Assembly (NCBI RefSeq): GCF_014297595.2
Contig: NZ_CP060414.2
Coordinates: forward strand, 992,001-1,056,000
From: Neisseria musculi
Lineage (GTDB): Bacteria > Pseudomonadota > Gammaproteobacteria > Burkholderiales > Neisseriaceae
DNA length: 64,000 bases
Direction: 5' to 3'
Positions 35,939 to 51,409 of this stretch are shown here, piece after piece. A program made the position numbers and the translations under genes. Below the pieces are notes generated by a model that made no database searches, had not been told where the DNA came from, and worked only from the letters and a program-made list of their open reading frames with translations. Each line of letters begins with the position of its first letter. The first letter of the stretch is position 1.

Positions 35939-38062
35939 ATGGCCAAACTAAAATCTATAGCCTTAGCCGTTACCGGCGTATCGGCAGTTTCAGGTGCAAC
36001 ATACACCTACGCAGCTCCTTCCAGTCAAACAGCAGGTATGGCAATGATGCGCTTGAATTCATCATTACTTGATCAAGAGAAAAGAAGCCAAAATAATCTT
36101 GCGTCCGGCAGTTTGTGGAATGCCATGCGTAAAGATTTCCGTATGGCCGAAGTTAATTCCAATTTGGTGCGCAGTCACGAAAATAAATTTTCTGCCAGCC
36201 GCGCCTATTTCGACCGTACCATCAACCGCAGCAAACCCTATATGTATCATATTGCGAATGAAGTCAAAAAACGCAATATGCCCGCCGAAATCGCCCTACT
36301 CCCTTTCATTGAAAGCGCATTTGTTACCAAAGCCAGATCCCATGTAGGTGCCTCGGGTTTATGGCAGTTTATGCCCGCCACAGGCCGTCACTTCGGGTTG
36401 GAACGCACCGCCTTATATGATGGCCGCCACGATGTATATGCCGCCACCAACGCCGCATTGAATTATCTTGAATATCTCCACGGCATGTTTGGTGACTGGT
36501 CATTGGCATTGGCTGCTTACAACTGGGGTGAAGGCAATGTCAGCCGCGCAATCAACCGTGCACGGGCACAAGGCTTGGCTCCCGTTTATGAAAACCTGCG
36601 AATGCCCGCAGAAACCCGCAATTATGTTCCCAAACTGCTTGCTGTTCGCAACATCGTGAAAAACCCCCACGCTTTCGGCATGGGCTTGAGCGATATTGAA
36701 AACAAACCTTATTTCAAAGCCGTAAATATAGATAAACCCATTGATACAAGAGCTATTGCGCGCTTGGCCAATATTAGCGAAAGTGAATTTTTGGCTCTGA
36801 ACCCGGCGTTCAATGTACCTGTTTTTGTACCGAAAGCCAACCGCAAACTGCTGCTGCCGGCTCATGCCACCTCTACATTTGAGAAAAACTACCGCAATGC
36901 CAAGTCTGACGAATTGCTTTCTTGGGACGTTTACACCGCCGGCGGAAAAACCAGTTTGAACCGTATTGCCGCCGAAGCTGGCATGGATATAACCGAACTC
37001 AAACGTTTGAACAATACTAACAGCGATTCGCTCAACTCTGGCCGCAATCTGTTGGTGGCTAAAAACAGCATTAAAGGCAAAAGCACCAATGACTACAACT
37101 ATGTTCGCATCGAAACTGAACGCAGCCCCTTACCCAACAGTTACAACACCAATACAGCCTCTCTAAAACAGATCAACGGTTCTGATGTCAAAATAGCTGA
37201 ATCCAGTTCGGCTCCAATTGCCATTCTGACAGGCCAAACAAAACCTGTTTCGGAACAAAGCAGCACCTCACTGGCACCCGTTTCCATTGCAGCCTCTCTG
37301 ATTGCCCCCAACCAACTTCCTGAAAAAGTAGGTAACACAGCCAATTCCGTTAAGATAGAGAAGACTAATCTTACCGCAGTTCAGGCCCCAGAAACCACAA
37401 CAATTGCTATTGCGGAGCCCCTGCCCCTGCCTACGCAAACCTCTGCAACCCCTATTTCGGAACAACCGACCCCCTCTGACGAATCTGCCGATGTTGCCGT
37501 AAACGACACCTCTCTGCCCAACCGTACCCCCCAAGCCACCCAGCCTACAGACCCCTTGCTGGCACTGGTTAATGACACAGAACAGCAACGCTTGAATGCT
37601 GCCGACAGCATTAAAAACACACTAGCCCAATTAGAGGCCGAAGAAACTGCCAACAAAGCCCGTGTTAACCGTATTGTTGCCAGCCGCAGTAAACAGCAGC
37701 AACGTACCGAAGCCCGCTTAGCTCGAGCCAATGCAGCTGCGCAACATGCCAATAATACCCACCGAGTAGAAGCCGGTGATACTTTGTTCAATATTTCCCA
37801 GCGTTATAACTTAACCGTAGCTGATTTGATTACCGTAAACAATATCAAAGGTAACAGTATCCGCAAAGGCCAAGTATTAAAAGTAACCGCAGCCTCTACC
37901 CAGCGGAATGCCGTACGTAATGTCTCTTATACTGTACGCAAAGGTGATACACTCAACACGATTGCCAGCCGCTTTAATGTTGATGTAAACGATATCCGCC
38001 GTTGGAACCGAAATACCCGCACAGTAACACCGGGCCAACGCTTAAAACTAATCGGCAGTTGA
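35939..38062 (+). CDS. mltD: Membrane-bound lytic murein transglycosylase D with LysM domains
   Basis: MltD cleaves the glycan strands of peptidoglycan to anhydromuramyl products. The 707-residue product has an N-terminal signal peptide (no lipobox Cys, so likely periplasmic rather than a lipoprotein), the family 1 lytic transglycosylase domain (about 95-250) with catalytic Glu125 in LLPFIESAFV and GASGLWQFMPATGRHFGL, NYVPKLLAV, a LysM-like segment near 330-375, a long Ser/Thr/Pro-rich linker (about 390-600) and two C-terminal LysM domains (HRVEAGDTLFNIS and SYTVRKGDTLNTIA). The extended linker is longer than in E. coli MltD. Confidence 0.93.
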   Translation: MAKLKSIALAVTGVSAVSGATYTYAAPSSQTAGMAMMRLNSSLLDQEKRSQNNLASGSLWNAMRKDFRMAEVNSNLVRSHENKFSASRAYFDRTINRSKPYMYHIANEVKKRNMPAEIALLPFIESAFVTKARSHVGASGLWQFMPATGRHFGLERTALYDGRHDVYAATNAALNYLEYLHGMFGDWSLALAAYNWGEGNVSRAINRARAQGLAPVYENLRMPAETRNYVPKLLAVRNIVKNPHAFGMGLSDIENKPYFKAVNIDKPIDTRAIARLANISESEFLALNPAFNVPVFVPKANRKLLLPAHATSTFEKNYRNAKSDELLSWDVYTAGGKTSLNRIAAEAGMDITELKRLNNTNSDSLNSGRNLLVAKNSIKGKSTNDYNYVRIETERSPLPNSYNTNTASLKQINGSDVKIAESSSAPIAILTGQTKPVSEQSSTSLAPVSIAASLIAPNQLPEKVGNTANSVKIEKTNLTAVQAPETTTIAIAEPLPLPTQTSATPISEQPTPSDESADVAVNDTSLPNRTPQATQPTDPLLALVNDTEQQRLNAADSIKNTLAQLEAEETANKARVNRIVASRSKQQQRTEARLARANAAAQHANNTHRVEAGDTLFNISQRYNLTVADLITVNNIKGNSIRKGQVLKVTAASTQRNAVRNVSYTVRKGDTLNTIASRFNVDVNDIRRWNRNTRTVTPGQRLKLIGS

Positions 38063-38095
38063 CTTTATTCATAAACTTATATAGTGAAAAAGTAA

Positions 38096-38138
38096 AATAA
38101 GATACCTGATGGTTTATATCCATCGGGTATCTTATTTT
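38096..38138 (+). terminator. Rho-independent terminator of mltD
   Basis: AATAAGATACCTGATGG pairs with CCATCGGGTATCTTATT around a seven-base loop, ending in T residues, 34 bases after the mltD stop. Confidence 0.9.
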
Positions 38139-38500
38139 CGGGCAGCCTCAATCTTTGGAAAGGTCGAGTTGATTACATTTTTTTCTAAACAGCTTTTATT
38201 TCTACCAAAATGATTATTTCGTGATTTTTAGTACCATCAAGAAGGGTCGTCTGAAAGAGCGACCGGCATCAGCCAACGTGTTTTAATGTAAAGCCGTCTG
38301 AAACGCTACACTGGCATCAGTAGGTGGATGAAGTATGGGCAATGATATCAGTTTCAATGAAGACAGCACACAAAATAAAGATTAAGAAGCGCGTATAACA
38401 GCCTGAAACGCAATCTACCTTATCTGTTTGCTTTTGAGCAAGACAAGGAATCGGAGATTAAGCCTAATTCAGCAACCTCCAAAATAGGAGGGTGACAAAG
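38139..38500. other. Gene-free stretch at the edge of the prophage region
   Basis: No gene. One uptake sequence lies near 38292 and one variant with the core GTCGTCTGAA (the mucosa-type dialect) near 38245. A small stem CCTCC/GGAGG lies near 38477-38491. Confidence 0.4.
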
Positions 38501-38570
38501 AAAAAAAGCCTAAACGTTGTTTAGGGCTTTTAAAACTTGGCTCCCCGTTCTAGCCCAGATGCGAACCAAA
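38501..38570 (-). other. tRNA 3'-end-like fragment plus terminator, possible att site
   Basis: On the minus strand a stretch with GGTTCG and, after an irregular arm, GGGGAGCCA (38546-38538) resembles the T arm and acceptor end of a tRNA (closest to tRNA-Asn of betaproteobacteria). It is directly followed by a rho-independent terminator (AAGCCCTAAAC, AAC, GTTTAGGCTT and a T run, 38530-38501). A displaced tRNA 3' end with its terminator is what remains at one edge when a phage integrates in a tRNA gene. The arm is degenerate, so the call is tentative. Confidence 0.35.
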
Positions 38571-38609
38571 GTTTTATCTATTCAGTTACCTAAATAATTC
38601 TCGAAAGCG

Positions 38610-38638
38610 GCGTGATTGTTAAAAATCACGCTGTTTTA
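38610..38638 (+). terminator. Hairpin before the phage genes
   Basis: GCGTGATT and AATCACGC enclose a six-base loop, followed by TGTTTTAGTTTT. It precedes the terminase-like gene by about 35 bases and is palindromic, so it could act on either strand. Confidence 0.55.
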
Positions 38639-38666
38639 GTTTTGCCTTTGGCCATTTAATGGCGGT

Positions 38667-39625
38667 ATGTCTAAAAAATCGCGCAATTATTCACAATCCC
38701 TTGATTCGGTGGTTTTCGGCTGTTACGGCTGCCGGAAAACTTTGAGTGAGCGCCTGAGTGGGGGGAGGATGAACCGGCTCGGGCGCATCACCCTTTCCGT
38801 TATTTCGCGGTGTGCCCTAGCTGCGGGGGAGAAGTCGAGCAGGCGCAGTATCACGTTAATTTGATTAAGGCGTGGTGCAATGCGACTGGGCCGAAGACGG
38901 ACGAGGGCAAGGCAGCGACGGCTAAGAATTTGGAAGGACACCCGACGCCTGAAGAGGCGAAGCGCACGCGGTTTAATGCGATGAAGCATGGGCTGAATGC
39001 TCGGGTGGCTCAGTATTTCCCAGCAAAACCCGACCGATACGCGGCGTGTGAAACCTGCGATATTGACCGGGCTTTTTGCGCTGCGCAGCCTGCCTGCCAG
39101 AAGCAGACGCAGCTTTTTATGCTGCATCAGGCGGCATTCGAGCAGCGCGACCCGAAACACTTAATACCGATTTATGCGGATATACAGGCGGGTATTACCG
39201 CCATCATGCAGCAGATTTTGCAGACAATTCTGAAAGAAGGCGTGTCGTTGCGCACGCCTGCTTGGGCGGTGGATAAAGACGGCGGCGTGGTGATTGCGGA
39301 ATACGAAGATTTGGCGACAGGTCAACGCCGCACGATTTATGAAGTTAAAGCGCACCCGTTATTGCGCTCGCTGCAAGACTTTTTATCGAAAAACGGTATG
39401 TCGCTGGCGGATATGGGCATGACGCCGCGCGTAATCGAGCAGGAAGAAGCGGCGATGGGTAGGCTGGCTCAAGACGGCGAAGCACAGCAGTCGTTGATGG
39501 AATATTCGCAGCGGCAGGCGTTGGCGTTGGAGAATTTGGCGGATTTGGCCAAGCGCGCGAATGCCAAAAAGATGCAAGACCCCGTGTTGATTGAATACCA
39601 GCAGCAGAACGGTGGTGAAAAGTGA
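38667..39625 (+). pseudogene. Phage small-terminase-like protein, frameshifted at a G6 tract
   Basis: The gene starts at ATG 38667 (MSKKSRNYSQSLDSV) and shifts frame at a run of six G (38760-38765); beyond it the frame from 38810 onward runs 271 codons to 39625. Joined, the two parts form an N-terminal zinc ribbon (CYGC then CPSC) followed by a helical protein (TGPKTDEGKAATAKN, RFNAMKHGLNARVAQYFPAKP, more Cys pairs CETC and CQKQ). Its place before small zinc-ribbon genes and the start of a large terminase makes a small-terminase or packaging role likely. I do not know the family by name. The shift could be phase variation, decay or a sequence error. Confidence 0.6.
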
Positions 39626-39777
39626 ACAGCAACGATGAATATCAAACGCATTGCGAACAATGCGGGGCAGAGCTGACCGGAGAAGAAAAACTTTGCTACG
39701 GCTGGCTGTGCCCTGCTTGCGATGACGAAGTGCATCAGGCGTGTTTGGCAGAGATTGAGGAAAAGGAAAAACCATGA
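39622..39777 (+). CDS. Small phage zinc-ribbon protein
   Basis: A GTG start overlaps the previous stop (GTGA). The 51-residue product has two CXXC pairs (CEQCGAEL and CPACDDE) with EEKLCYGWL between them and an acidic tail. It is probably a DNA- or protein-binding zinc ribbon. The tight overlaps on both sides show it belongs to the terminase operon. Confidence 0.65.
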   Translation: MNSNDEYQTHCEQCGAELTGEEKLCYGWLCPACDDEVHQACLAEIEEKEKP

Positions 39778-39938
39778 TGCCGTCTGAAAACTGTGAAGCG
39801 TGCGGCGAAAAAATGACGCATGAAGAGCAACTCGAGTTTTTGTTTATGTGCTGGAAATGCCATGAAGAAGAATCAGCTTATTTAAATCAGGCTTTTGGAT
39901 TGACTGATGAGCACAGCCGCCCAACGCATCAAGGTTAA
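39774..39938 (+). CDS. Second small phage zinc-ribbon protein
   Basis: ATG at 39774 overlaps the previous stop (ATGA); a second ATG follows at 39777. The 54-residue product has CEACGEKM and CWKCHEEE and an acidic, hydrophilic tail. It is a near paralogue in design to the gene before it. An AT-type uptake sequence (ATGCCGTCTGAA) covers codons 2-5. It overlaps the following terminase gene by 32 bases. Confidence 0.6.
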   Translation: MMPSENCEACGEKMTHEEQLEFLFMCWKCHEEESAYLNQAFGLTDEHSRPTHQG

Positions 39939-40149
39939 GCACCGCGCCGAAGCGGAAATTATGCGCTATGCCAAGCCCGACCCGGAAACGGGGGTAAAGC
40001 CGCACGCGCTTTGGCACAAGCATGTGCACAATGTCGACCTTGACCCGATGCAGTGTCTGAAAATGCAGGAAATGGATGATAACCGCAGCACGGTTGATTT
40101 TTCCTGCCGTCGGATGAAGCCGCGCGCGAAAAATCGGCGCGTTTGTTGA
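39907..40149 (+). pseudogene. Large terminase subunit, N-terminal fragment cut by a Mu-like prophage
   Basis: The frame begins MSTAAQRIKVKHRAEAEIMRYA and continues to DRSTV-type sequence NRSTVDFSCRR, after which large terminases of this type continue TGKT (Walker A of the packaging ATPase). Here the phage coding sequence stops at about base 40114, and the last 12 codons (from MKPRAKN) are read from the invading Mu-like end. The truncation removes the whole ATPase and nuclease. Family knowledge of the expected continuation is from memory of phage terminases; the abrupt change at a Mu-type end is seen in the sequence. Confidence 0.65.
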
Positions 40150-40185
40150 GATAAATCGGATTTAAATTTGTTTCACCGTGTGAAA
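40115..40185. mobile_element. Right end of a Mu-like prophage
   Basis: TGAAGCCGCGCGCGAAAAA starts at 40115 and differs at only two or three positions from the right end of phage Mu (TGAAGCGGCGCACGAAAAA). As in Mu, an AT-rich stretch with further GAAA/TTTCA-type transposase-binding-like sequence follows (GTTTCACCGTGTGAAAT, 40169-40185). The terminal TG dinucleotide is at the edge of the interrupted terminase gene. The prophage extends from here to the right, beyond the window; its left end is not seen. Confidence 0.75.
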
Positions 40186-40257
40186 TACTTTTGCAAATTA
40201 TACCGAACTCGGGAAAGCAGAATGACAAAAGCAACTACATCGTCGCTTTTGTTTTTT

Positions 40258-41028
40258 CTACCAGTTACAGATGACCAGCTCACCGCTGGTCTTTTGCGTT
40301 TTATCACGGCCAACTGAATAGGCCAACTCCAGCCTATGAATACGGAAATCTTTAAACAGCTTCCGAATATCCGGGTGGTCGTTGATGGAAAGCATGACCT
40401 TGCCTTTGCACTCCGCCATCATTTTGGCCAACAGCTCATACTGCGGCCAGTCAAAGGCTCTGTCGTAGCCTGCAAGCTGCCAGTACGGCGGGTCGGCGTA
40501 GAAGAAGGTGTGTTCGCGGTCGTAGCGTTTGAAGCACTTTTCCCACGGTTCGTTCTCGATGTACACACCGTTCAGCCTTTGCTGTGCGGCTTTCAGACGG
40601 CCTGCGATGTCGGCGGCGGTAAAGCCGCGGCCGGTGGTGGCCGTGCCGAAGTGTTGGTCAACCGTTTTACCGCCGAAAGCGGTGTGTTGAAGGTAGAAGA
40701 AGCGTGCGGCACGTTGGATGTCGGTCATCGCTTCGGTCGGGGTGGATTGCAGGCGGGCGAACACCTCTCTACTGGTCAGCGTCCACTCGAATTGGCGTAC
40801 GAACTCGTCGAAATGGTGCTGAACCACGCGATACAAATTGATGAGCTGACCGTTGATATCGTTGAGCACCTCACACTTGGCCGGTTGCGGCCGCAGGAAA
40901 AACAATGCCGCGCCACCGGCGAAGAGCTCAACGTAGCAAGTATGCTCGGGAAACATCGGAATCAGGTGTTTGGCCAAACGGCGTTTACCACCCATCCATG
41001 GAACAATTGGCAGAGGCTTTTGAGTCAT
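40258..41028 (-). CDS. Phage DNA adenine methylase (Dam family)
   Basis: The 256-residue product is a D12-class N6-adenine methyltransferase. PWMGGKRRLAKHLIP (10-24) and ELFAGGAALFF (34-44) form the SAM site, and DPPY (179-182) is the catalytic motif. ATG at 41028 has AGGAG seven bases upstream, so the longer frame from 41067 is not used. It lies directly downstream of com near the prophage right end, the place of mom in Mu; Mu-like phages of Neisseria and Haemophilus also carry com-dam here. It probably modifies phage DNA against restriction. No partner restriction enzyme is present. Confidence 0.93.
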   Translation of the reverse strand: MTQKPLPIVPWMGGKRRLAKHLIPMFPEHTCYVELFAGGAALFFLRPQPAKCEVLNDINGQLINLYRVVQHHFDEFVRQFEWTLTSREVFARLQSTPTEAMTDIQRAARFFYLQHTAFGGKTVDQHFGTATTGRGFTAADIAGRLKAAQQRLNGVYIENEPWEKCFKRYDREHTFFYADPPYWQLAGYDRAFDWPQYELLAKMMAECKGKVMLSINDHPDIRKLFKDFRIHRLELAYSVGRDKTQKTSGELVICNW

Positions 41029-41078
41029 GATTACTCCTATATAGTAAGTATCGGTACTCAAAGGCACTCAGGTCTGAA

Positions 41079-41186
41079 TTATTGGGTTTTAAACTGATTG
41101 AGCAATTTGCAGCGCGGACACTTGATTTCAAAGCAGCCACGGCCAACAGCCAACAATTTAAAACAATTTTTGCAACGGTGTTTCAT
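41079..41186 (-). CDS. com: Com translational activator (Mu family)
   Basis: This 35-residue gene has two zinc-binding pairs, CKNC (5-8) and CPRC (23-26), and the Com-type pattern KNCFKLLA then FEIKCPRCKLLNQ. In Mu, Com binds the mom mRNA leader and opens its ribosome site. Here it ends 50 bases before the Dam-type gene, so it likely controls the methylase in the same way. A zinc-ribbon of this kind at the prophage right end is diagnostic of Mu-like phages. Confidence 0.85.
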   Translation of the reverse strand: MKHRCKNCFKLLAVGRGCFEIKCPRCKLLNQFKTQ

Positions 41187-41435
41187 TTTTCGCAGTACCT
41201 TTTACGTTAGTGATAAAATACCGCTGCCTCGCGAGGTGGCGGCCTTGAAGCTAACGCAGGCCAATTCTGCTTGGCTGGCGTGTCGGTGTTACCGCACCGG
41301 CACGTCGCCGTCTTTATATCTTTGTTCGGCCGTCTGTTTCAGACGGCCTTATATATTGCACCCCATGAAAAGGGGTGCATTTTTACATTCTACCCCTTGA
41401 CAAGTCCGAACAACCGACTTTCAAAGGGGTCTGAA
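41187..41435. other. Junction of Mu-like and filamentous prophage
   Basis: No gene. It should hold the com promoter, the left end of the filamentous prophage, a CCTCGCGAGG palindrome (41226-41235), an inverted uptake-sequence pair (41328-41348) and a terminator (41357-41384). The exact joint cannot be placed by eye; ACCCCTTGAC at 41393-41402 recurs at 48213-48222. Confidence 0.45.
41357..41384 (+). terminator. Hairpin terminator at the left end of the filamentous prophage
   Basis: TGCACCCC and GGGGTGCA enclose seven bases and are followed by five T residues. Confidence 0.75.
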
Positions 41436-41666
41436 ATGTCATTAGCTTACTACACCGTAACGCCCGAACCCGAAATTTTTCCCAAAGCCTACATCGTCCG
41501 CGTATTCCGTGAATCAAATAACGATTGCGTTTGTCTGCAAACCGTCAATTTTCCTATCCGAAACCCTGACCTGCCGAACAAAACCCTGTCTGAAGCCGAC
41601 ACGTTCGGGCGTATGACCGTTAAGAAACTGATTGACTGTCATGTGATGGCGAAAGCGGGTTCTTGA
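41436..41666 (+). CDS. Conserved small filamentous-phage protein
   Basis: ATG at 41436 has an AAAGGGG site and gives 76 residues (MSLAYYTVTPEPEIFPKAYIVRVF, then RESNNDCVCLQTVNFP). It directly precedes the replication initiator by one base, the place of the first gene of Neisseria Nf/MDA phages. I do not know a function; a role in replication or regulation is suggested only by position. Confidence 0.6.
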   Translation: MSLAYYTVTPEPEIFPKAYIVRVFRESNNDCVCLQTVNFPIRNPDLPNKTLSEADTFGRMTVKKLIDCHVMAKAGS

Positions 41667-41667
41667 G

Positions 41668-42893
41668 ATGGCGCACAGAACGTACAGAATCAAGCCCAAC
41701 CCCGCCCGTTTCGGCGGCGGTTGGAATCTGCAGCTAATCGAAGCCGGAAAAATCATGCTCACAAAAAACGAACCTGCAAACCCATGCCCGCATGGTTTTG
41801 GGTTTGCCGGCCAAATCCATCACGATTTGGCTTTGCCGGCCTGCAAATTAGGCGGCCAATCTTGGATTGAAGCGGGGGGTGTGTCCATGAGTACCCGCTG
41901 CTGCCCCGAATGCCGCCAGTACCGCCAAACGTCCGCTTTTTCGGGCGTTTTGGGCTGCGTCTGTGATGTATGCGCCGTAGCGGCGCAAAGCGCGAAGCGC
42001 GGCGCGCTTTCTTGTCTTAATAGTAACAACTGCATCGGGAATCATGCTGCAGGCATGAAAGGCAGTAAAAACAAGCAATTGCCAAAATTTCATGAAAGGT
42101 TTGAAAGCGAAGCGGCAAAAGAGAGCGCAAAACTGAATGTGTTTTCGACTTCGCACAAGAAATCTGCAACCGCGTTGGAATTAAACGTACACCAATTCAT
42201 ACAAACATTTGGCCTAAACCATGTCGGCTTTTTAACTCTAACCTTTGCCGATGACGTGCAGGACGTAAAAGAAGCCGGCCGCCGCTTTCACAGTCTGCGC
42301 ACAAACTTTCTGAGTAAACATTTCAAACACTGCATCTGCGTGTATGGGCGCACCAAGAAAGGCCGTATTCACTTCCACCTAATCGTAAACACCCGTGAAG
42401 ATACGGCGTGGGCTGAACTTTGCCACGATTGCCGCCCGTGGCTACCAAAGTGCCAACCCCGCATTGCGCCGGTTTTGGAAGCTGATACGAGAAAACGTGG
42501 GCAGATACGGTTTCGGCCGCGCCGAACTGCTGCCGGTCAAAACCAACAGCAAAGGCTTGTCGCGCTATGTCGCCAAGTACATTGCCAAGCATATTGACAG
42601 CCGTCTTCCCGAAGACAAGGGCTATAGGCTTATCCGCACCACCATTGACAAAAAAAGCCTTTGGAAGATTGCCACATCAAACTTTTCGTTCCGCTCTGCC
42701 GGTTCGGCCCGATGGCGGCGCAAGCTGCAAAACCGGGTTGTGGCCGTTGGGCCGTATCTCAAAAGATGCCGTTGAAGTCAGGGGATTGGTGATACCCGAT
42801 ATAACCGAAGAGAATTACAACATCGTTTTAAGTGAAACCATCAGCCCCAAATGGGCATTTTTGAACCGCGGAATTATCGGAAAGCGGCCTTAA
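41668..42893 (+). pseudogene. Filamentous-phage replication initiator (rolling-circle), frameshifted
   Basis: Frame 1 (from ATG 41668) has Cys-rich segments (CCPECRQY, CVCDVC), FLTLTFADDVQD and the HUH metal motif in GRIHFHLIVNTRED. Near 42400 the frame changes and the protein continues as GLNFATIAARGYQSANPALRRFW, then KGLSRYVAKYIAKHID with the catalytic Tyr/Lys motif of rolling-circle initiators. Near 42760 a second shift leads to DAVEVRGLVIPDITEENY and the stop at 42893. The intact protein would be about 405 residues. As read, no functional initiator is made. Confidence 0.75.
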
Positions 42894-42906
42894 GAAAGGA
42901 AAAGCC

Positions 42907-43094
42907 ATGAGCAACAAAACCCCAACCCCGCAGCCGCCCGTTCAAGGCATTTACATGACCGCCGCCTTTGACCACCGCATGATGGTGAGAGAGCGCAAAA
43001 ACGATGACGGCAGTTACAGCAAAACCAACTCTTGACCGTGCGCGTATTCCCGCGCGCCTTTAAAGACAACGTGTACTACTCGGACGAAAGCTGA
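42907..43094 (+). pseudogene. Small filamentous-phage DNA-binding-like protein, frameshifted
   Basis: ATG at 42907 with a GAAAGGAAAA site. The first frame (MSNKTPTPQPPVQGIYMTAAFDHRMM onward) stops after KTNS; one base out of phase the next block LTVRVFPRAFKDNVYYSDES runs to a TGA at 43092-43094. Its place between the initiator and the major coat gene, its size (about 62 residues) and basic character are those of a pV-like single-strand DNA-binding protein. A single-base indel near 43033 breaks it. Confidence 0.5.
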
Positions 43095-43187
43095 ACAAAG
43101 ATTCAGGGCTTGGGCGGTGTGCCTTGAATTGACCCCTTAAACACCGCCGACCTGTTTTTACTTACTAAACTTTGAAAGGAAAAAATC

Positions 43188-43412
43188 ATGAAAAACCTGA
43201 AAGACAAAATGTATAAAGCTATGGCAGTCGCCACAATGACCGCCATGCCAGCCGTTGCATTGGCCGATGATGCCGATCTGCTTGGTGCCGTCAAAACCGA
43301 AACCGGCGGTTTGAAAGCAGGTGTTTTGTCGATTGGTGCGGTAGTAGTGGGCATCTCTATTGCCTTTGCGCTCGTGCGCATCGGCAAACGCGGTGCAGAC
43401 TCTGTAGGCTAA
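43188..43412 (+). CDS. Filamentous-phage major coat protein (pVIII-like)
   Basis: The 74-residue product has a signal peptide (KDKMYKAMAVATMTAMPAVALA, cleavage after about residue 26), a short acidic segment (DDADLLGAVKTETGG), one membrane helix (LSIGAVVVGISIAFALVRI) and a basic end (GKRGADSVG). This is the layout of inovirus major coat proteins that wait in the inner membrane before extrusion. It has an AAAGGAAA site and is intact. Confidence 0.85.
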   Translation: MKNLKDKMYKAMAVATMTAMPAVALADDADLLGAVKTETGGLKAGVLSIGAVVVGISIAFALVRIGKRGADSVG

Positions 43413-43421
43413 GGTGCAGTC

Positions 43422-43730
43422 ATGGGTTATCAGGTAGGCCGAATCTGCCATCAAACGCATGAAGAAGCAACAAACGCCGTGATGACCCAAGTTTTGCCTA
43501 CAATCGACAAAGACGGGGTGTTACACCACCCCGTTTTTAAAGGCAAAACGTGGGTTTACAAAGAACAGCCCGTAAAGTTGACTTTCCCTCAATGTGAATA
43601 TGGTCAATACCATCAAGCAGGAAAGGAAATAGGCATAGGGCTGTCAACAGCCGCTGCCGTGCTGTTTGTGGTTGTGGTGGCCGTAAAAGCGGTCGGAATG
43701 ATGGGAAATGACGGAACTGAAGAAAGATGA
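43422..43730 (+). CDS. Filamentous-phage membrane protein (minor virion candidate)
   Basis: The 102-residue protein is soluble for about 70 residues (with Cys10 and Cys58) and has one C-terminal membrane helix (about 73-90, LSTAAAVLFVVVVAVKAV). It lies nine bases after the coat gene and overlaps tspB by four bases (ATGA). Genes of this shape in this place occur in Neisseria MDA/Nf prophages. The function is unknown; a minor coat or assembly protein is likely. Confidence 0.65.
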   Translation: MGYQVGRICHQTHEEATNAVMTQVLPTIDKDGVLHHPVFKGKTWVYKEQPVKLTFPQCEYGQYHQAGKEIGIGLSTAAAVLFVVVVAVKAVGMMGNDGTEER

Positions 43731-45643
43731 GAAATGTTACCCGAAATGGAATTTGCACTTGGACTGCTTCCCGCTCTTTGCGGCTCGCTGTGCTTACTTG
43801 TTTCAGCCTTAACGCTGCGTTAAGCCCGCTGGCCGCATGGGCAGACGTACCCACGCCCCCGACCGCATACCACAAACAGATAGATACCAGCTTCCCAAGC
43901 GGCCAAGCCTTGCTGAATCAGGGCTACAACCCCAAAACGGGGGTATTGAAAGTAGAGAACCGCCCGCAGGGAAAACCGACCGTAACCACCAACGGTCAGA
44001 CGGTAACAGGTACGCGAAACACCAATGTGGTGGTTACTGATAAATACGGCAACAAGGTAAAAGTGCCGTCAAGAATTACGCAAACGGCCAATGCTGCTGT
44101 GATTGCAAGTTATGTTGGAAATAGTCTTGCTGAAGGTATTTCAAAATATGGTAATCAGTCAGTTAATGATTATAAAGATGGCCGCTTTGGTGATATGGGG
44201 CGGTCTGTTGCTGGCGGAGTTGCAACAACACTTGATGCTTTGAGTGGTGGGGTTTTGGGGTCTGTTTGGGGCGTTGTCGATAATGCGACCGGCTCGAATA
44301 TTACGGGCGGTAATCCGTCTTCGGTTTCAAACACTATTAAAAAGTTGCAAGAATCTGCTGACAATTTCCATAAAGAAATGTATGGCGGGGGAAATCCGTC
44401 AAGCCCTTCCTACAACAAAGGGAATCCATCATCACCGTCAACAGCCAACCCGTCTTCACCATCAACAGGCACACCTGCCCGACCGGGCAACCCCTCCAAT
44501 CCGTCTGTTAGCGGCGGGGCTTCTTCTTCGGGGCTGGGTTCTGCTGCCGCTGCTGCCGCTTCTGCACAAAAAACCGCAGAAAGAAACGGAGATGTTGGTA
44601 ATGCGGTTGGTAATGCCGCATTAAAAAAAGCCGCCGACACTGCCGCAAATGCTGCCGAAGCCAAAGCCAGGCACGAGCAGGCGAAGGAAGCGGCAAAAAA
44701 AGGTAACGAAGTTTACCAAGTCGTATTGAACTATACAGACTACGGCGTAGAACCCGTTCGAAGCAAATATAAAAGGCTAGGGGCTTATACTGATAAACAA
44801 TCAACTTCAATTGCGAGATATGACAGTAAAGGCCGCAGAACAATTATTAAATCTTCGTTTTTGGATTCCTATTTGCCGGGTAGTTTGAAAGGCTCGGGTG
44901 TTGCGGCTGTGAATACAGATTTGGTCAGTGTGAATACACCCGAACCGACACCGCCTACTGCTGAAGATATGAACCTTTCAGGTGGTGAAGTCGAGCAAAT
45001 TCTGCGGCGCATGTTTGAAAACCAGCAAACCAACCATCGCGAAATGATGAACCAGTTGGTCCGCATTGCCGCCAACACCGCTCCTACTGCCCCGACAGAT
45101 TCACCTCCGCCGACCCAAACAGACGGTACGGGCAAACAAGTGATACGAAAAAGCGTGGTAGATGAAGCAACCACATCAAAAAGCGTTCAAAAAAATACCG
45201 TGAAAAGCGCACCTTATACACCTATGGGCAGCAACCAAGCCCAGCAAACCGAAGTTACGGTAAATAATGACGGCAGCGTAACCACAAGGATTATTCCGCG
45301 TCCCGATTTGAAAGCCAACAGCAGTCAAGCCCCGACACGCTCTCCCGTTACCCCCGATGCGGCCAATCCGTCAAACCCTGCCGTGGCCGATGCCGCCAAC
45401 CCGTCTCAAACGGTACCGAACCAAACAGGGAATCAGCAAAACCAGCAGAACCAACAGAACAATCAGCAGAACCCGCAACAGCGCGATTTCTGCGAGAGAA
45501 ACCCGCAAGCGGCGCAATGCGCGGATTTGGGCAGTGCCGATTACGAAGATTTGGATATACCCGAAAACGGTATAGATTTGGAATTGAAACCGCTTGACGT
45601 ATTCAGTACAGACGGCGTCTGCCCTGAAAACGTTTCCTTTTAG
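43727..45643 (+). CDS. tspB: TspB-like adsorption/IgG-binding protein, ends at an in-frame amber
   Basis: TspB is the large pIII-like protein of Neisseria filamentous prophages; in meningococcus it binds human IgG. The 638-residue frame has a signal peptide (cleavage after about residue 39, AWA-D), a central region with repeated NPSSPS blocks (about 220-260), Ala-rich helices, Pro/Asn/Gln-rich repeats (about 540-590) and the typical C-terminal domain start FCERNPQAAQCADLG and LELKPLDVFSTDGVCPENVSF. There a TAG (45641-45643) interrupts it; the same frame then continues for 44 codons through the membrane anchor (45644-45778). As read, the product lacks the anchor. Confidence 0.82.
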   Translation: MRNVTRNGICTWTASRSLRLAVLTCFSLNAALSPLAAWADVPTPPTAYHKQIDTSFPSGQALLNQGYNPKTGVLKVENRPQGKPTVTTNGQTVTGTRNTNVVVTDKYGNKVKVPSRITQTANAAVIASYVGNSLAEGISKYGNQSVNDYKDGRFGDMGRSVAGGVATTLDALSGGVLGSVWGVVDNATGSNITGGNPSSVSNTIKKLQESADNFHKEMYGGGNPSSPSYNKGNPSSPSTANPSSPSTGTPARPGNPSNPSVSGGASSSGLGSAAAAAASAQKTAERNGDVGNAVGNAALKKAADTAANAAEAKARHEQAKEAAKKGNEVYQVVLNYTDYGVEPVRSKYKRLGAYTDKQSTSIARYDSKGRRTIIKSSFLDSYLPGSLKGSGVAAVNTDLVSVNTPEPTPPTAEDMNLSGGEVEQILRRMFENQQTNHREMMNQLVRIAANTAPTAPTDSPPPTQTDGTGKQVIRKSVVDEATTSKSVQKNTVKSAPYTPMGSNQAQQTEVTVNNDGSVTTRIIPRPDLKANSSQAPTRSPVTPDAANPSNPAVADAANPSQTVPNQTGNQQNQQNQQNNQQNPQQRDFCERNPQAAQCADLGSADYEDLDIPENGIDLELKPLDVFSTDGVCPENVSF

Positions 45644-45778
45644 TTCGGCGCATTGGGCAGCTTTGAATTTGATTATGCCTATATTTGTAATGTCTTACGC
45701 TTGATACGCCCGATTTTGATAACCGCCACCATCATTACCTGCGGCTTTGTGGCATACGGCGCGGTTAAGGAGCTTTGA
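45644..45778 (+). other. TspB C-terminal membrane anchor beyond the amber codon
   Basis: In frame with tspB, the sequence reads FGALGSFEFDYAYICNVLRL and then IRPILITATIITCGFVAYGA before VKEL and TGA (45776-45778). This is the normal anchor of pIII/TspB proteins. It has no start codon of its own, so it is expressed only by readthrough of the TAG or not at all. Confidence 0.75.
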
Positions 45779-45779
45779 A

Positions 45780-46058
45780 ATGTGGGGTAACCTGATTACA
45801 GGCGTTTTGATGAACGTTGCAGGCCGTGTGATTGCCGCGCTGGGTTTGTCGTTTGTCTCTTATGTCGGCATCAACGAGATACAGGCTTTTCTTCTATCAC
45901 AAGTTCAAGAACATATCGGGGGTGTGCCTGCCGATGCTTTAAATCTTGCCTACATTGCAGGTATCGGCGTGTGCCTCAACTGGGTATTCGGCACTTTCTC
46001 GTTTGTCGCATCACTGAAAGCCGTTTCGAAGCTGTCGGCAGGTATTCAAAGAAAATAA
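45780..46058 (+). CDS. pVI-like minor coat protein (DUF2523)
   Basis: ATG at 45780 follows the tspB frame at once. The 92-residue product (MWGNLITGVLMNVAGRVIAALG...) has three hydrophobic helices and the DUF2523 pattern, the family of filamentous phage end-cap proteins that pair with TspB/pIII and precede the Zot gene. It is intact. Confidence 0.8.
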   Translation: MWGNLITGVLMNVAGRVIAALGLSFVSYVGINEIQAFLLSQVQEHIGGVPADALNLAYIAGIGVCLNWVFGTFSFVASLKAVSKLSAGIQRK

Positions 46059-46076
46059 ATTCTAAGGAAAACAGAA

Positions 46077-47246
46077 ATGCTCTATTTGATTACAGGCGTA
46101 CCGGGCAGCGGCAAAACCCTGAAAATGATTTCAGACTTAATGAACCGCAAAGATCTGAAAAACCGCCCGCTGTATTTGGACGGCATTTCCGAAGTCGACA
46201 ACGAAGTCATACCCAATCTGCCCATTCCCGAAGGCGAAACCATGCAGACTTGGCACAAATGGGCGCCCACGGGGGCAATACTCGTAATCGATGAATGCCA
46301 GCGCGTATTCAGGCCGCGCCCCAGCGGCTCCAAAGTTCCTGACTACGTGGCCGAACTGGAAACACACCGCCATAAAGGCATAGATATTTTTTTGCTGACC
46401 CAACACCCCCGTCTGATAGATATAAACGTCCGCAGCCTGATTGGTCATCACTGCCATATCAGTAAAAGCAATCTGGGCGTTCGGCGTATGTTTGAATGGG
46501 AAAGTTGCGGCGATCCGACCAGCCGCGCCAGCGTGGCAAGTGCCGTCAAAAGCGTTTATACGCTCGACAAAAAAGCATTTGGGGTTTACAAAAGCGCCGA
46601 AGAACACACCAAAATCAAAACCAAGCTAAGCCGCGTTGTATATATCGCGCCCGTTTTACTGGCGTTCATGATTGCCGCTTCATGGTATATATACTCAAGC
46701 TGGAATGATTACACCAAAAAACAGACGCATACGGCCAAAGAACACATTGCCGCACCGGCGGCAAGCCCTGCGGAAAGTGCGGCGGATGCGGCTGCGCCGG
46801 CTGCCGCCGCGCCGGCTGCCGCCGCAATTCCGGCAGGGCAGTACCCGTCAGCAAAAGAACAGGCCGAAACGCCGCAAAAACCGCATATCAGCGAAGACGA
46901 CTACAAACCCGCCATAGACGGCCAGCCGTGGACGGCTCCCATCTACAACGGCCAAAACAAAGCCGTACAAACCATGCCCTATCCCGTGGCGTGCGTCAAA
47001 AACCAAAACAAATGCACCTGTTATACCGACCAGGCCACACCGATTAAAGAGATGAAGAAACAGCAATGCCTTGATTACGTTGCAGACGGCATATACAATC
47101 CTTACAGACGGGCGGCAGAAAACACCGTCCCAACGGCAGAAAAGGCAAACGAACCCGCACCTCCGCAAGTGCTGGTAATGGGCGGCAAAAGCCCGCAGAA
47201 TCTGATGTATGACGGTTATGTCGAAGCGGGTGAACAGTTTAGGTAA
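46077..47246 (+). CDS. Zot-domain assembly ATPase (pI-like)
   Basis: Zot/pI proteins drive extrusion of filamentous phage at the inner membrane. The 389-residue product has Walker A GVPGSGKT (7-14), Walker B ILVIDE (68-73), the LLTQHPRLID segment, a membrane helix at about 187-207 and a periplasmic tail rich in Ala/Pro (about 225-255) followed by a Cys-containing domain (CVKNQNKCTCY). The whole domain is open. No clear zonula-occludens peptide motif could be judged by eye. Confidence 0.88.
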   Translation: MLYLITGVPGSGKTLKMISDLMNRKDLKNRPLYLDGISEVDNEVIPNLPIPEGETMQTWHKWAPTGAILVIDECQRVFRPRPSGSKVPDYVAELETHRHKGIDIFLLTQHPRLIDINVRSLIGHHCHISKSNLGVRRMFEWESCGDPTSRASVASAVKSVYTLDKKAFGVYKSAEEHTKIKTKLSRVVYIAPVLLAFMIAASWYIYSSWNDYTKKQTHTAKEHIAAPAASPAESAADAAAPAAAAPAAAAIPAGQYPSAKEQAETPQKPHISEDDYKPAIDGQPWTAPIYNGQNKAVQTMPYPVACVKNQNKCTCYTDQATPIKEMKKQQCLDYVADGIYNPYRRAAENTVPTAEKANEPAPPQVLVMGGKSPQNLMYDGYVEAGEQFR

Positions 47247-47360
47247 TTAATCATGACTTGTTTTTTTTGGTTCTTAGTCGGAATAATTGTTGCAAACATT
47301 TACTTTAAATATGGATTGCGTGGTTTTTTTGATTTTAAAAAGCCGTTTGTTTATGTAATA

Positions 47361-47368
47361 TTATTTTT
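47361..47368. repeat. Target-site duplication of the first IS (left copy)
   Basis: TTATTTTT is present at 47361-47368 and again at 48089-48096, directly flanking the element. Eight bases is the normal size for IS1595. Confidence 0.85.
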
Positions 47369-48088
47369 GGGGCTGTCCTAGATAACTAGAACAAATCCTG
47401 CTTTACTGATTGTTTTAAAATAGAAATTTGAAATTTTATCTCACTGTTGTTAAAACGCCATTCACACTCTTTCAAATACAGTTCAAAATGCTCTTTGGGA
47501 ATGCCATTAAACTTGCGTAAATGGCGTTTTGCTTGGTTCCAAAAGTTCTCAATTCCGTTAATGTGATTTTGTCGCTCAGCAAAATGTGTGCTGTGATTGA
47601 TCCGAAAATGTGAAAATTCGCTCACATCAAGAACGTCATAACTTTTGTAACAATCGGTATAAACAATGCTATCAGGCTTCACTTGCTCGCGGATAATTGG
47701 CAATAAAGTCGCAGTTTGTGTATTGGGTACGGCAACGGTGTAAACCTTACCATTACGCTTCAAAAGCCCGAATACAGCCACTTTGCCAGCCGCACCGCGA
47801 CCACGTTTGCCTTTGCGTTGTCCGCCAAAATAGCTTTCATCAACTTCTACTTCACCATCAAGCATTTCCAGATGCGGGCTGTTGTGATAGATAAGTAAGC
47901 GCAAACGGTGGAAGTAATAGGCAGCGGTATTTTTATTGACGCTAACTAATTGCGCCGCTGTGCGAGCGGTAACACCTGCAACAAATAGTTCAATCAGTTT
48001 GTTTTGCTTGTACTGACTTAAACGACTTTTTCTCATAGGGATTATTCTAACCTGAAGTTAAATTTCCCTAGTTATCTAGTACAGCCCC
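47369..48088 (-). mobile_element. IS1595-family insertion sequence (IS1016-like), copy 1
   Basis: The 720-bp element has terminal inverted repeats starting GGGGCTGTCCTAGATAA on the left and GGGGCTGTACTAGATAA on the right (one mismatch). It is bounded by the 8-bp duplication TTATTTTT and holds a single transposase gene on the minus strand. It is intact and differs from copy 2 at very few positions. Confidence 0.95.
47386..48036 (-). CDS. IS1595-family transposase, copy 1
   Basis: The 216-residue transposase has an N-terminal helix-turn-helix (VTARTAAQLVSVNKNTAAYYFHRLR), and the DDE-type catalytic residues of the family: Asp66 in VEVDESYFGG, Asp128 in VYTDCYKSY, then Asn160 and Glu163 in NHINGIENFW. 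It differs from the copy at 50111-50761 by one residue near the end (Ser for Leu). It is complete and likely active. Confidence 0.95.
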   Translation of the reverse strand: MRKSRLSQYKQNKLIELFVAGVTARTAAQLVSVNKNTAAYYFHRLRLLIYHNSPHLEMLDGEVEVDESYFGGQRKGKRGRGAAGKVAVFGLLKRNGKVYTVAVPNTQTATLLPIIREQVKPDSIVYTDCYKSYDVLDVSEFSHFRINHSTHFAERQNHINGIENFWNQAKRHLRKFNGIPKEHFELYLKECEWRFNNSEIKFQISILKQSVKQDLF

Positions 48089-48149
48089 TTATTTTTTACT
48101 TGTATATTGATTTACTATGCTTTTTCATTGATGAAAAATGCCTAAACAA

Positions 48150-48222
48150 GTCAAGGGGCGGGCGTCCGTAAAATATTGTAATCGCCCTAAGCGTTTACAA
48201 TATTTTACGGATACCCCTTGAC
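48150..48222. repeat. Long inverted repeat in the phage noncoding region
   Basis: Outer arms GTCAAGGGG (48150-48158) and CCCCTTGAC (48214-48222) enclose inner arms CCGTAAAATATTGTAA (48166-48181) and TTACAATATTTTACGG (48195-48210). The 16-bp inner arms match perfectly. It lies right after the last structural gene. Such a structure in an inovirus could be the origin, the minus-strand origin or the packaging signal. Confidence 0.85.
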
Positions 48223-48252
48223 GCCCTGCCACCCGATACGCTCCCTGCTGCT

Positions 48253-48275
48253 CCCGCAGCGCCCACTGCTGCGGG
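48253..48275. other. GC-rich hairpin in the phage noncoding region
   Basis: CCCGCAGC (48253-48260) pairs with GCTGCGGG (48268-48275) around a seven-base loop. It stands beside the long inverted repeat and may be part of the same origin or packaging region. Confidence 0.6.
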
Positions 48276-48291
48276 GGCTGCCACACGGCGA

Positions 48292-48507
48292 ATGCGGGGT
48301 TTGGGGCAGCGCCCCATAAAGCAAAAGCTCCAAGCCCTGATAGATTCAGGCGGATATATCAGGGCTTGGCGTTTGACGAAACACCAAGCAAAGCCCCCGA
48401 CTTCGCAAGTACGGCCGATGCCAAAGCATGTAGAAAAGATTGAAGCGGGGGCTTACCGCATGAGCAAGTTTGAACACTATCTAGGGATTAAAAGCCCGTA
48501 TTTATAA
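48292..48507 (+). CDS. Possible small phage protein upstream of irg
   Basis: A 71-codon frame (MRGLGQRPIKQKLQALIDSGG...) ends YRMSKFEHYLGIKSPYL, 11 bases before the irg start. It has a basic, soluble character, but no ribosome site, and a 12-bp hairpin (CAAGCCCTGATA with TATCAGGGCTTG, 48331-48368) falls inside it. It may be noncoding. Confidence 0.35.
   Translation: MRGLGQRPIKQKLQALIDSGGYIRAWRLTKHQAKPPTSQVRPMPKHVEKIEAGAYRMSKFEHYLGIKSPYL
48331..48368. other. 12-bp stem-loop upstream of irg
   Basis: CAAGCCCTGATA (48331-48342) and TATCAGGGCTTG (48357-48368) match perfectly around a 14-base loop. No T run follows, so it is not a simple terminator; a structural signal of the phage or recombinase is possible. 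Confidence 0.6.
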
Positions 48508-48518
48508 GGTAAAACACC

Positions 48519-49468
48519 ATGTACTTGGGAATAGACGTGAGCAAAGCAAGCATAGACTGCTGTCTGATAACAGACGGCTTTTTTTATGAACATCGGTTCA
48601 GCAACAGCCCCACAGGTTACACCAAGCTGAAAGCATGCTAAACGGCCATAACGCCAACCCAAGCCTGCACTGCTGCTGCGAAGCAACGGGAACCTACCAT
48701 GAACCGCCGGCCGAATATCTCAACGGCCATTACAAAATGAGCGTGGACAACCCAAGAAAAATAAAAGGCTTCGCAAACGCCGTATTGCAAAGAAGCAAAA
48801 CCGACAAACAAGACGCAAAACTCATCGCACGATACTGCAAGGCCATGAATCCAGAACCGTGGCAGCGTCCCACATCCGCACAAAAACAGCTTCAGGAACT
48901 GACCCGCTATATAGCCCGCATCAAAAAGCAACGAGCCGCCGAACAAGTCAAACTGCAAACGGCATCAGATACAATTGGCCAATTTATCAAAGACAACATC
49001 AAATACCTAAACAACCTGCTGCAAAAACTCAACCAAGAACTCAAAGCCTTTTACAAAGCCAATCCCGACTACCACAGAAACCGCCAACGCCTGAAAACCA
49101 TCACAGGCATAGGCGAAAACACCGCCGCCGTTTTGCTCTCGACCATAACATCACGCTTTGATACCGCTGCCCAACTGGCCGCCTATTTCGGTTTGGGTCC
49201 AAAACGGCATCAGCCGGGAACAAGCGTAAACGGCAAAGAACGGATTTCAAAGGTAGGCAAGTCCGACTTAAGGGCAGCCCTATACATGCCCGCATTGGTT
49301 GCCTACCGCATGAAAGCCTTTCCCGCCTTTATCGGCCGTCTGAAAGCCGGGAAAAAACCGCCGAAACTCATCATTGTTGCAATTATGAGAAAGCTGGTAA
49401 CCATCGCCTTCCACCTGTTGAAGAACCAAACGGAATATGATAAAAGTCGTTACGAATTAACAACATAA
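48519..49468 (+). pseudogene. Irg/PivNM recombinase (IS110/Piv family), one-base frameshift
   Basis: ATG at 48519 starts MYLGIDVSKASIDCCLI with the first acidic residue of the RuvC-like DEDD fold. After KLKAC the frame stops at a TAA, and the rest of the protein is in another frame from 48635 (LNGHNANPSLHCCCEATGTY...), through KTDKQDAKLIARY to the C-terminal TITGIGENTAAVLL and AAYFGLGPKRHQPG transposase-20 domain. Restoring one G in GCATGCTAAAC (to GCATGGCTAAAC) would fuse them. Piv-like genes accompany Neisseria filamentous prophages and are thought to act in their integration. The gene would be inactive as read. Confidence 0.82.
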
Positions 49469-50001
49469 ATTAACAATGACAAACAGAAAAATGCCCCGCA
49501 AAAGCAGGGCATGGCTTGGTTGTTGCTGAAAGAATACACCAACGGCATTGACACTAAATACACTATCTTTTCTTTTCCCTGTGCATTTTTCAGAAAAGCG
49601 GCCAATAAGTTAGGGCCGATGCGCCACGCTTCGGGCAACCCCAGCGCAGCAGCGGCGGCCTCACTGCAGAAATAGCGGTCGGCCGATTGCGGAAACACGC
49701 GGAATACCACGCCCAAGCTGCCGGGAAGGTCATAGCGGCAGCCGGTGTGCCCGGTAAACCATTTACGCACCTGGGCCTCTTCCGCCGCCTCGGCCGAGAT
49801 ATCGACAAAATCCCAATGGCCGGGCTTGAAGTTGATTTTTTTGAAACGCACGCCGCCGTCAAGCCAGCTGGCAGAGGCGCACAGGCCGTCTGAGAACACC
49901 ACTTCGCAGTGGCTGTACGGCCCGCGGTCGACAAACCGCACCAAGCGGCTTATCCAACCCCGCCAAGCGGGCATCGTGCCTTTGTAAAACGCGACTTTCA
50001 T
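49450..50001 (-). CDS. Phage papain-like (NlpC/YiiX-type) hydrolase, altered C-terminus
   Basis: The 183-codon frame starts MKVAFYKGTMPAWRGWISRLVRF and has the permuted papain-like layout: His in GPYSHCEVVF, the GVRFKKI and WDFVDI strands, then Cys in YFCSEAAAAALG. Homologues known to me in Neisseria prophages end near NLLAAFLKN; here the frame runs on for about 45 more residues into sequence that overlaps the irg 3' end and a hairpin, so the tail is probably not native. The gene lies after the tail fibre genes. Its ATG follows a terminator T run at once. Confidence 0.65.
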   Translation of the reverse strand: MKVAFYKGTMPAWRGWISRLVRFVDRGPYSHCEVVFSDGLCASASWLDGGVRFKKINFKPGHWDFVDISAEAAEEAQVRKWFTGHTGCRYDLPGSLGVVFRVFPQSADRYFCSEAAAAALGLPEAWRIGPNLLAAFLKNAQGKEKIVYLVSMPLVYSFSNNQAMPCFCGAFFCLSLLIYVVNS

Positions 50002-50002
50002 A

Positions 50003-50032
50003 AAAAAATCCCTGCAAAAGATGCAGGGATAT
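50003..50032 (-). terminator. Terminator directly in front of the papain-like gene
   Basis: On the minus strand ATCCCTGCATC, TTTTGCAGGGAT and a T7 run (50003-50009) form a rho-independent terminator whose last T residues adjoin the ATG at 50001. It would end the tail operon before the papain-like gene. Confidence 0.75.
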
Positions 50033-50058
50033 TAAGGGGAACCGGGCAGAAATGCTTT

Positions 50059-50778
50059 GGGGCTGTACTAGATAACTAGGGAAATTTAACTTCAGGTTAG
50101 AATAATCCCTATGAGAAAAAGTCGTTTAAGTCAGTACAAGCAAAACAAACTGATTGAACTATTTGTTGCAGGTGTTACCGCTCGCACAGCGGCGCAATTA
50201 GTTAGCGTCAATAAAAATACCGCTGCCTATTACTTCCACCGTTTGCGCTTACTTATCTATCACAACAGCCCGCATCTGGAAATGCTTGATGGTGAAGTAG
50301 AAGTTGATGAAAGCTATTTTGGCGGACAACGCAAAGGCAAACGTGGTCGCGGTGCGGCTGGCAAAGTGGCTGTATTCGGGCTTTTGAAGCGTAATGGTAA
50401 GGTTTACACCGTTGCCGTACCCAATACACAAACTGCGACTTTATTGCCAATTATCCGCGAGCAAGTGAAGCCTGATAGCATTGTTTATACCGATTGTTAC
50501 AAAAGTTATGACGTTCTTGATGTGAGCGAATTTTCACATTTTCGGATCAATCACAGCACACATTTTGCTGAGCGACAAAATCACATTAACGGAATTGAGA
50601 ACTTTTGGAACCAAGCAAAACGCCATTTACGCAAGTTTAATGGCATTCCCAAAGAGCATTTTGAACTGTATTTGAAAGAGTGTGAATGGCGTTTTAACAA
50701 CAGTGAGATAAAATTTCAAATTTCTATTTTAAAACAATTAGTAAAGCAGGATTTGTTCTAGTTATCTAGGACAGCCCC
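50059..50778 (+). mobile_element. IS1595-family insertion sequence (IS1016-like), copy 2
   Basis: The same 720-bp element as at 47369-48088 in the opposite orientation, with ends starting GGGGCTGTACTAGATAA and closing in the inverted copy. A perfect 8-bp duplication AATGCTTT flanks it (50051-50058 and 50779-50786). It sits at the stop codon of the tail fibre assembly gene without damaging it. Confidence 0.95.
50111..50761 (+). CDS. IS1595-family transposase, copy 2
   Basis: This 216-residue protein is identical to copy 1 apart from Leu in place of Ser near the C-terminus (ILKQLVKQDLF). Catalytic residues Asp66, Asp128, Asn160 and Glu163 are present. The gene is complete. Confidence 0.95.
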   Translation: MRKSRLSQYKQNKLIELFVAGVTARTAAQLVSVNKNTAAYYFHRLRLLIYHNSPHLEMLDGEVEVDESYFGGQRKGKRGRGAAGKVAVFGLLKRNGKVYTVAVPNTQTATLLPIIREQVKPDSIVYTDCYKSYDVLDVSEFSHFRINHSTHFAERQNHINGIENFWNQAKRHLRKFNGIPKEHFELYLKECEWRFNNSEIKFQISILKQLVKQDLF

Positions 50779-50785
50779 AATGCTT

Positions 50786-51409
50786 TTAACGGACTTTAAA
50801 ATCAGGTAGTGTGAACTCGATTTTGATTTTATCCAGTTCGGCCTGGGTGCTGGCAGCCTCAATCTTGCTTTGTAGGGCTTGGCGTTGCCCCGCGATATGG
50901 GCGGTGAGTGCCTCATAGGCCAGCGTTTTCTGCAGCGCGGCGGTCTTGAGTTGCTCGACCGGTACACCGCGCGCAGCCGCAATGCCGTCTAAAACGGGTG
51001 TCAGCACGGTGCTGTCTGCCGCCCACGCTTTGGCCTCCGCAGCCTGCAATGCCCACGTCTGCACCTCAAAAGGAGGAAGTTTGTCGGTTTCGGCGGCAGC
51101 GTCGATGCAGGCTTGGGCGGCAACATTGAGCTGCCGCAGCTTGTCGGCTTTGGCGGTGGCGAGTTGCTGTGCGGCCGCGCCATCAGGCAGCACCCACTCG
51201 CCATTTTGCAGCTGGTGCAGGTGACTTGGCGGCGGTGTATTACTAAACCAAACCTCTGCCCCATCCGACCACGCAAATGGATTTGAATCTGCGTAATCTG
51301 CTTTCAGATAATACAGGCCTTCAGTAAGGACGGGCGCATCATGCCTGATGATTTCGCAATGCCCAAATTCATTAAAGCCAAAATACATATAATAATCCTC
51401 ACTGAACAA
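50786..51409 (-). CDS. Tail fibre assembly protein
   Basis: The 207-residue protein begins MFSEDYYMYFGFNEFGHCEIIRHD and carries the DUF4376-like helical C-terminal half rich in Ala, Gln and Lys (QALQSKIEAASTQAELDKIKIEF). Such proteins follow the tail fibre gene and act as its folding chaperone. It overlaps the fibre gene by 11 bases. An internal ATG (residue 8, MYFGFNEF) is an alternative start. Copy 2 of the IS touches its stop codon. Confidence 0.75.
   Translation of the reverse strand: MFSEDYYMYFGFNEFGHCEIIRHDAPVLTEGLYYLKADYADSNPFAWSDGAEVWFSNTPPPSHLHQLQNGEWVLPDGAAAQQLATAKADKLRQLNVAAQACIDAAAETDKLPPFEVQTWALQAAEAKAWAADSTVLTPVLDGIAAARGVPVEQLKTAALQKTLAYEALTAHIAGQRQALQSKIEAASTQAELDKIKIEFTLPDFKVR

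Follow-up and report, generated by a model that had tools for sequence, protein, structure and literature searches.

A B3-type transposable prophage within a putative large terminase gene of a resident prophage in Neisseria musculi

In the genome of Neisseria musculi, a transposable phage of the B3 type, with late genes split in the manner of phage KS10, has almost certainly integrated in the large terminase gene (terL) of a resident prophage of another type. The window analysed here is the whole 64,000-nucleotide stretch G000:C1:992001-1056000, G000 being the N. musculi genome; 59 kb were added to its right, with coordinates continued past 64000. The initial annotation had placed a transposable, Mu-type prophage in another prophage's large terminase gene, a reading that is borne out by both junctions, by a target duplication, and by an uninterrupted copy of the gene in a genome of the same genus (G017). 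The case is clear because both halves of the broken terL persist. The features are listed in Table 1.

Table 1. Features of the resident prophage, the transposable prophage, and its insert
Feature	Position	Strand	Evidence or remark
Gene before terL	38667-39625	+	85% to 322-aa G017 protein, in two frames
terL first part, outer prophage, 69 codons	39907-40114	+	Residues 22-90 of G017 protein, 92.8% identity over 39907-40113
Target duplication GTCGGA	Left copy 40109-40114, right copy 87773-87778	unstranded	End comparison with relatives
B3-type transposable prophage	40115-87772 (window holds 40115-64000, late half)	-	Conserved ends, 6-bp duplications, tail/sheath/tape-measure families
Right terminus of transposable prophage, TGAAGCC...TTGAGATAAAT	40115-40170	unstranded	Conserved in relatives
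dam, D12-class adenine methylase of transposable prophage	40258-41028	-	PF02086, E 6.1e-33
Short ORF, 35 aa	41079-41186	-	Read by eye
8.2-kb insert in transposable prophage	41346-49594	+	Missing at same place in G041 prophage
Rep-like ORF	41668-42597		Pfam
DUF2523	45747-46058		Pfam
Zot	46077-47246		Pfam
IS1595-type transposase, in insert	47386-48036		Pfam
IS110-type transposase, in insert	48635-49468		Pfam
Second IS1595-type transposase	50111-50761	+	Nearly identical to 47386-48036, opposite orientation (translations)
terL remainder, outside window	87775-89217		Residues 90-569 of G017 protein, 94.0% over 87775-89214

At the left junction, the terL frame (ending ...STVDFSCRR) meets TGAAGCCGCGCGCGAAAAA at 40115, the ORF, which starts MSTAAQRIKV, staying open across the junction to 40149. 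When up to five substitutions were allowed, TGAAGCCGCGCGCGAAAAA had its sole exact match in the 123-kb stretch at 40115; the 18 further matches each carried four or five substitutions. The initial annotation had predicted the element's other end to the right of the window, and there the element sequence ...TTTATCTCAATGGGTTTCA terminates at 87772 and is followed by GTCGGACGGGCAAAACAGCAG. The terL frame resumes at 87775 and is open until its stop, supplying the remainder starting TGKT that had been expected beyond the element; the contrary outcomes that had been named, an absence of terL past CRR or a left end elsewhere lacking a terL remainder, did not occur. In G017, terL is uninterrupted and encodes 569 amino acids, of which the two pieces together cover residues 22-569 with no gap or loss. 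The insertion site is presumably just 5' of the Walker A motif. With the first 69 codons cut off from the remaining 480, the G000 copy is predicted to be unable to make a whole TerL. The right-hand piece has a match in 2 of 46 genomes of the genus, namely G000 itself and G017, and G000 holds no second terL copy of the outer phage (one match genome-wide).

The short direct repeat at the two ends had also been foreseen; a duplication is indeed present at both, but it is the 6-bp GTCGGA rather than the 5-bp TCGGA proposed. Comparison with G017 alone is compatible with 5 or 6 bp. A duplication of 5 bp was ruled out by the family, since an exact 6-bp repeat lies directly outside the ends in 13 of 13 paired insertions of the genus; the chance of any given 6-bp match is 1 in 4096. 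The pairing drew on 15 of 30 loci of one end search and 24 of 30 of another, which gave 13 pairs with both ends readable. Omitted as unpaired were G004 and G020 (right end beyond the retrieved sequence), lone left ends in G009, G010, G012, G013, G022, and G045, second copies in G042 and G035, and the G000 copies near 216 k and 1855 k; a third G001 copy, for which there were no loci, was also omitted. According to a paper on Leptospira transposable prophages, B3 duplicates 6 bp and Mu 5 bp (PMC8705779), so that the duplication found here agrees with B3 and departs from Mu, although 5 bp is stated for Mu and Mu-like phages elsewhere (PMC11406979), which counts against a B3-type, 6-bp picture. 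A Neisseria family of transposable prophages is thus shown to duplicate 6 bp.

That the interrupted gene encodes TerL is an assignment that we make with modest confidence. The whole G017 protein matches the large terminase family phrog_2 weakly (E = 1.3e-4); the two pieces singly matched no PHROG or Pfam family, and the protein had no match among PDB sequences. A "DNA packaging protein" of a Microcystis phage shares 55.6% identity with it over 91%, and the next gene in that phage is annotated as portal, while terL in G017 is followed by head-morphogenesis, portal, and Mu-type protease families. The Microcystis phage match and the neighboring portal and head genes provide the best support for a terminase identity.

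The remnant of the outer prophage covers some 8 kb in two parts (38.6-40.1 k and 87.8-94.1 k) and lies next to a tRNA-Asn at 94413-94488; approximately 5.5 kb of it aligns to G017. The gene before terL, which matches no PHROG or Pfam family and might by its position alone be called small-terminase (terS)-like, is frameshifted near its start and carries an in-frame stop. The remnant keeps a portal and a head protein, with 292 of 421 G017 residues of the latter aligning, and its Mu-type protease gene retains the first 169 of 857 codons. The first part of the head protein (90687-92096) is common with G017 and its C-terminal part differs, as if the tail domain had been exchanged. Downstream, the G017 phage encodes a sheath, tape measure, baseplate, Toprim protein, dam, and integrase; none of these parts has a match beside the remnant (to 105 k). 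No att repeat of the outer prophage emerged from comparing 38150-38670 with 94100-94700, where the best local alignment scored 20 against a mean of 20.1 and a maximum of 28 in 200 shuffles.

The DDE transposase of the B3-type phage, acting as is usual for its family, would have integrated the element into terL of the resident prophage; a staggered cut 6 bp wide, once filled in, would have duplicated GTCGGA, and TerL function would presumably have been lost. The transposable prophage would in turn have received a stretch of 8.2 kb with filamentous-phage genes and insertion sequence (IS) elements, and most genes of the outer prophage would have been lost; any ordering of these events is inferred. 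It is highly improbable that the junctions are instead an artefact of joining related prophage copies. Several related prophage fragments do occur in G000 (13 matches for one head protein) and could mislead an assembler, but an exact 6-bp duplication, ends conserved in relatives, and a split gene without gaps are not expected of such a chimera, and the assembly consists of two contigs totalling 2.93 Mb with a completeness of 100.

The original statement of a killing of one phage by another is not borne out, given the frameshifted gene before terL, the cut protease gene, and a remainder of the G017 phage that has no match alongside. Those same lesions point to an insertion that landed in an already dead remnant, which we consider nearly an even prospect; against this, both terL pieces are open and 93-94% identical to G017, so terL had no visible decay, and no date can be set for any lesion. 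That the insertion disabled a working prophage, with deletion and decay of the rest coming later, strikes us as rather unlikely: the insertion by itself breaks terL, for which G000 has no second outer-phage copy (the single match noted above), but the other lesions would suffice to disable the prophage and nothing places them after the insertion. The fullest version of events, in which a transposable competitor disarmed a prophage that was still live, the winner was later invaded by a filamentous phage, and the loser decayed, is doubtful and we think it improbable, since it requires that terL was hit before the other lesions arose; if true, it would be a three-deep record of phage-on-phage insertion.

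The integrated element is of the B3 type and not Mu itself. Its ends, read inward as TGAAGCC...TTGAGATAAAT and TGAAACC...TTGAGATAAAT, have matching TGAAGC.../TGAAAC... ends in relatives. The left-junction sequence, which had been taken for nearly the right end of Mu, belongs to a B3-type family. The dam gene on the minus strand near the right end was correctly recognized at the outset; the neighboring short ORF is putatively com-like. The element carries both the DDE transposase (603 aa; phrog_310, E = 8.7e-119) and the B-like DNA transposition protein (phrog_296, E = 5.7e-66) of the B3 type, together with a protease, major head, minor head, portal, both terminase subunits, GemA, a repressor-type HTH protein, sheath, and tape measure. 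Matches to the transposase occur in 58 phage records, of which 51 are Pseudomonas; identities are 46.0-47.3% for the 20 matches listed of the 58 and about 46% to P. aeruginosa B3-like phages.

Among named records, six loci carry the transposase: a Neisseria sp. MAG, N. weixii, N. sicca, N. bergeri, N. gonorrhoeae DSM 9188, and Bergeriella denitrificans. The N. gonorrhoeae locus (L113), a 23-kb contig whose transposase of this family is 72% identical, may be contamination; the Mu-like prophages MuMenB and Pnm1-2 are said in one paper to be absent from N. gonorrhoeae (PMC9778887). Neisseria prophages like BcepMu and phiE255 have been described previously (PMC9238386). Further related prophage fragments occur on G000:C1 near 216 k, 850 k, 971 k, 1278 k, 1849-1855 k, 2294-2297 k, 2329 k, and 2782 k.

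The transposable prophage is itself interrupted by an insert of 8,249 bases, where the G041 prophage has 26 bases and that of G043 a different stretch of approximately 3.6 kb; without it, the prophage is about 39.4 kb. The insert resembles the filamentous Neisseria phages of the Nf/MDA/NgoPhi6-9 type (names as used in PMC9778887) in having Rep-like, DUF2523, and Zot genes next to an IS110-type transposase, but it differs in sitting within another prophage. A frame at 42395-42775 overlaps the Rep-like ORF and is perhaps its shifted end. No ATTCCC-N8-GGGAAT repeats were found within 38001-52000. The inverted pair of IS1595-type transposases flanks 48.0-50.1 k and is a possible substrate for inversion.

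Among the 13 paired insertions, an ORF is interrupted in three: terL in G000, an ORF resembling a transposase in G007, and a long one in G042 (the cut-off was 100 codons open on one side and 40 on the other, and the G007 and G042 ORFs were judged by eye). A preference for phage genes or prophages was considered and there is no sign of it, because three of 13 insertions interrupt an ORF and only one of these is in a phage packaging gene. A literature search for a nested insertion in a terminase gene, or for a "prophage within a prophage", found none among the matches listed, which does not prove absence in print. The present case is a clean instance of a known process and opens no new mechanism; its value is that the break made by a transposable phage in a resident prophage's packaging gene is base-exact and can be checked. 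Prophage callers might take such a nest for a single hybrid prophage rather than three elements.

The late genes of the transposable prophage form two blocks flanking the early genes, one running from protease to tail and the other from lysis to G. In every genome where a single contig carries the protease, transposase, and minor head protein genes (12 of 12 genomes and 13 copies; G000, G001, G004, G005, G007, G023, G028, G035, G038, G041, G042, and G043), they run protease (-), transposase (-), head protein (+), or the mirror of this; copies lacking one of the three markers, such as those in G010, G015, and G022 and additional ones in G001 and G042, were left out. A recent 20-kb internal inversion in the G000 copy is ruled out by this shared order. 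The B3 gene order, with the early block inverted at one end and a single late block, is not found; the late genes are split, and "B3-type" therefore refers to the transposition machinery and not to the genome plan.

Like the B3 group (Beetrevirus, e.g., JBD18, NC_027986), the Neisseria element has a transposase of about 46% identity, the DNA transposition protein, and GemA, and in JBD18 too the early genes are transcribed opposite to the late genes. In JBD18, however, the late genes are contiguous, in a single block, and gemA is situated close to an end of the genome, whereas the Neisseria element has late blocks split by early genes and, in addition, sheath, dam, and com-like genes. A transposase of 46.9% identity in each case, a contractile tail, and dam genes are also present in Escherichia phage PhiKM and Klebsiella phage KP12 (Bcepmuvirus-like records), but their G and protease genes are adjacent and their late genes a single block. 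No Burkholderia records occur among the organisms of the 58 phage records matching the transposase. A comparable plan is that of Burkholderia phage KS10 (NC_011216; PMC2628397), in which minor head, portal, terminases, lysis, and repressor genes lie on one strand and the genes from transposase to GemA/Mor, protease, head, and tail on the opposite strand. The published description of KS10 reports neither flanking direct repeats nor TG...CA termini (PMC2628397). The splitting of late genes around the early block is thus not new, since KS10 is comparable, and the Neisseria element shares it with KS10 but differs in the placement of the G gene, the G-like gene of KS10 being in the other block.
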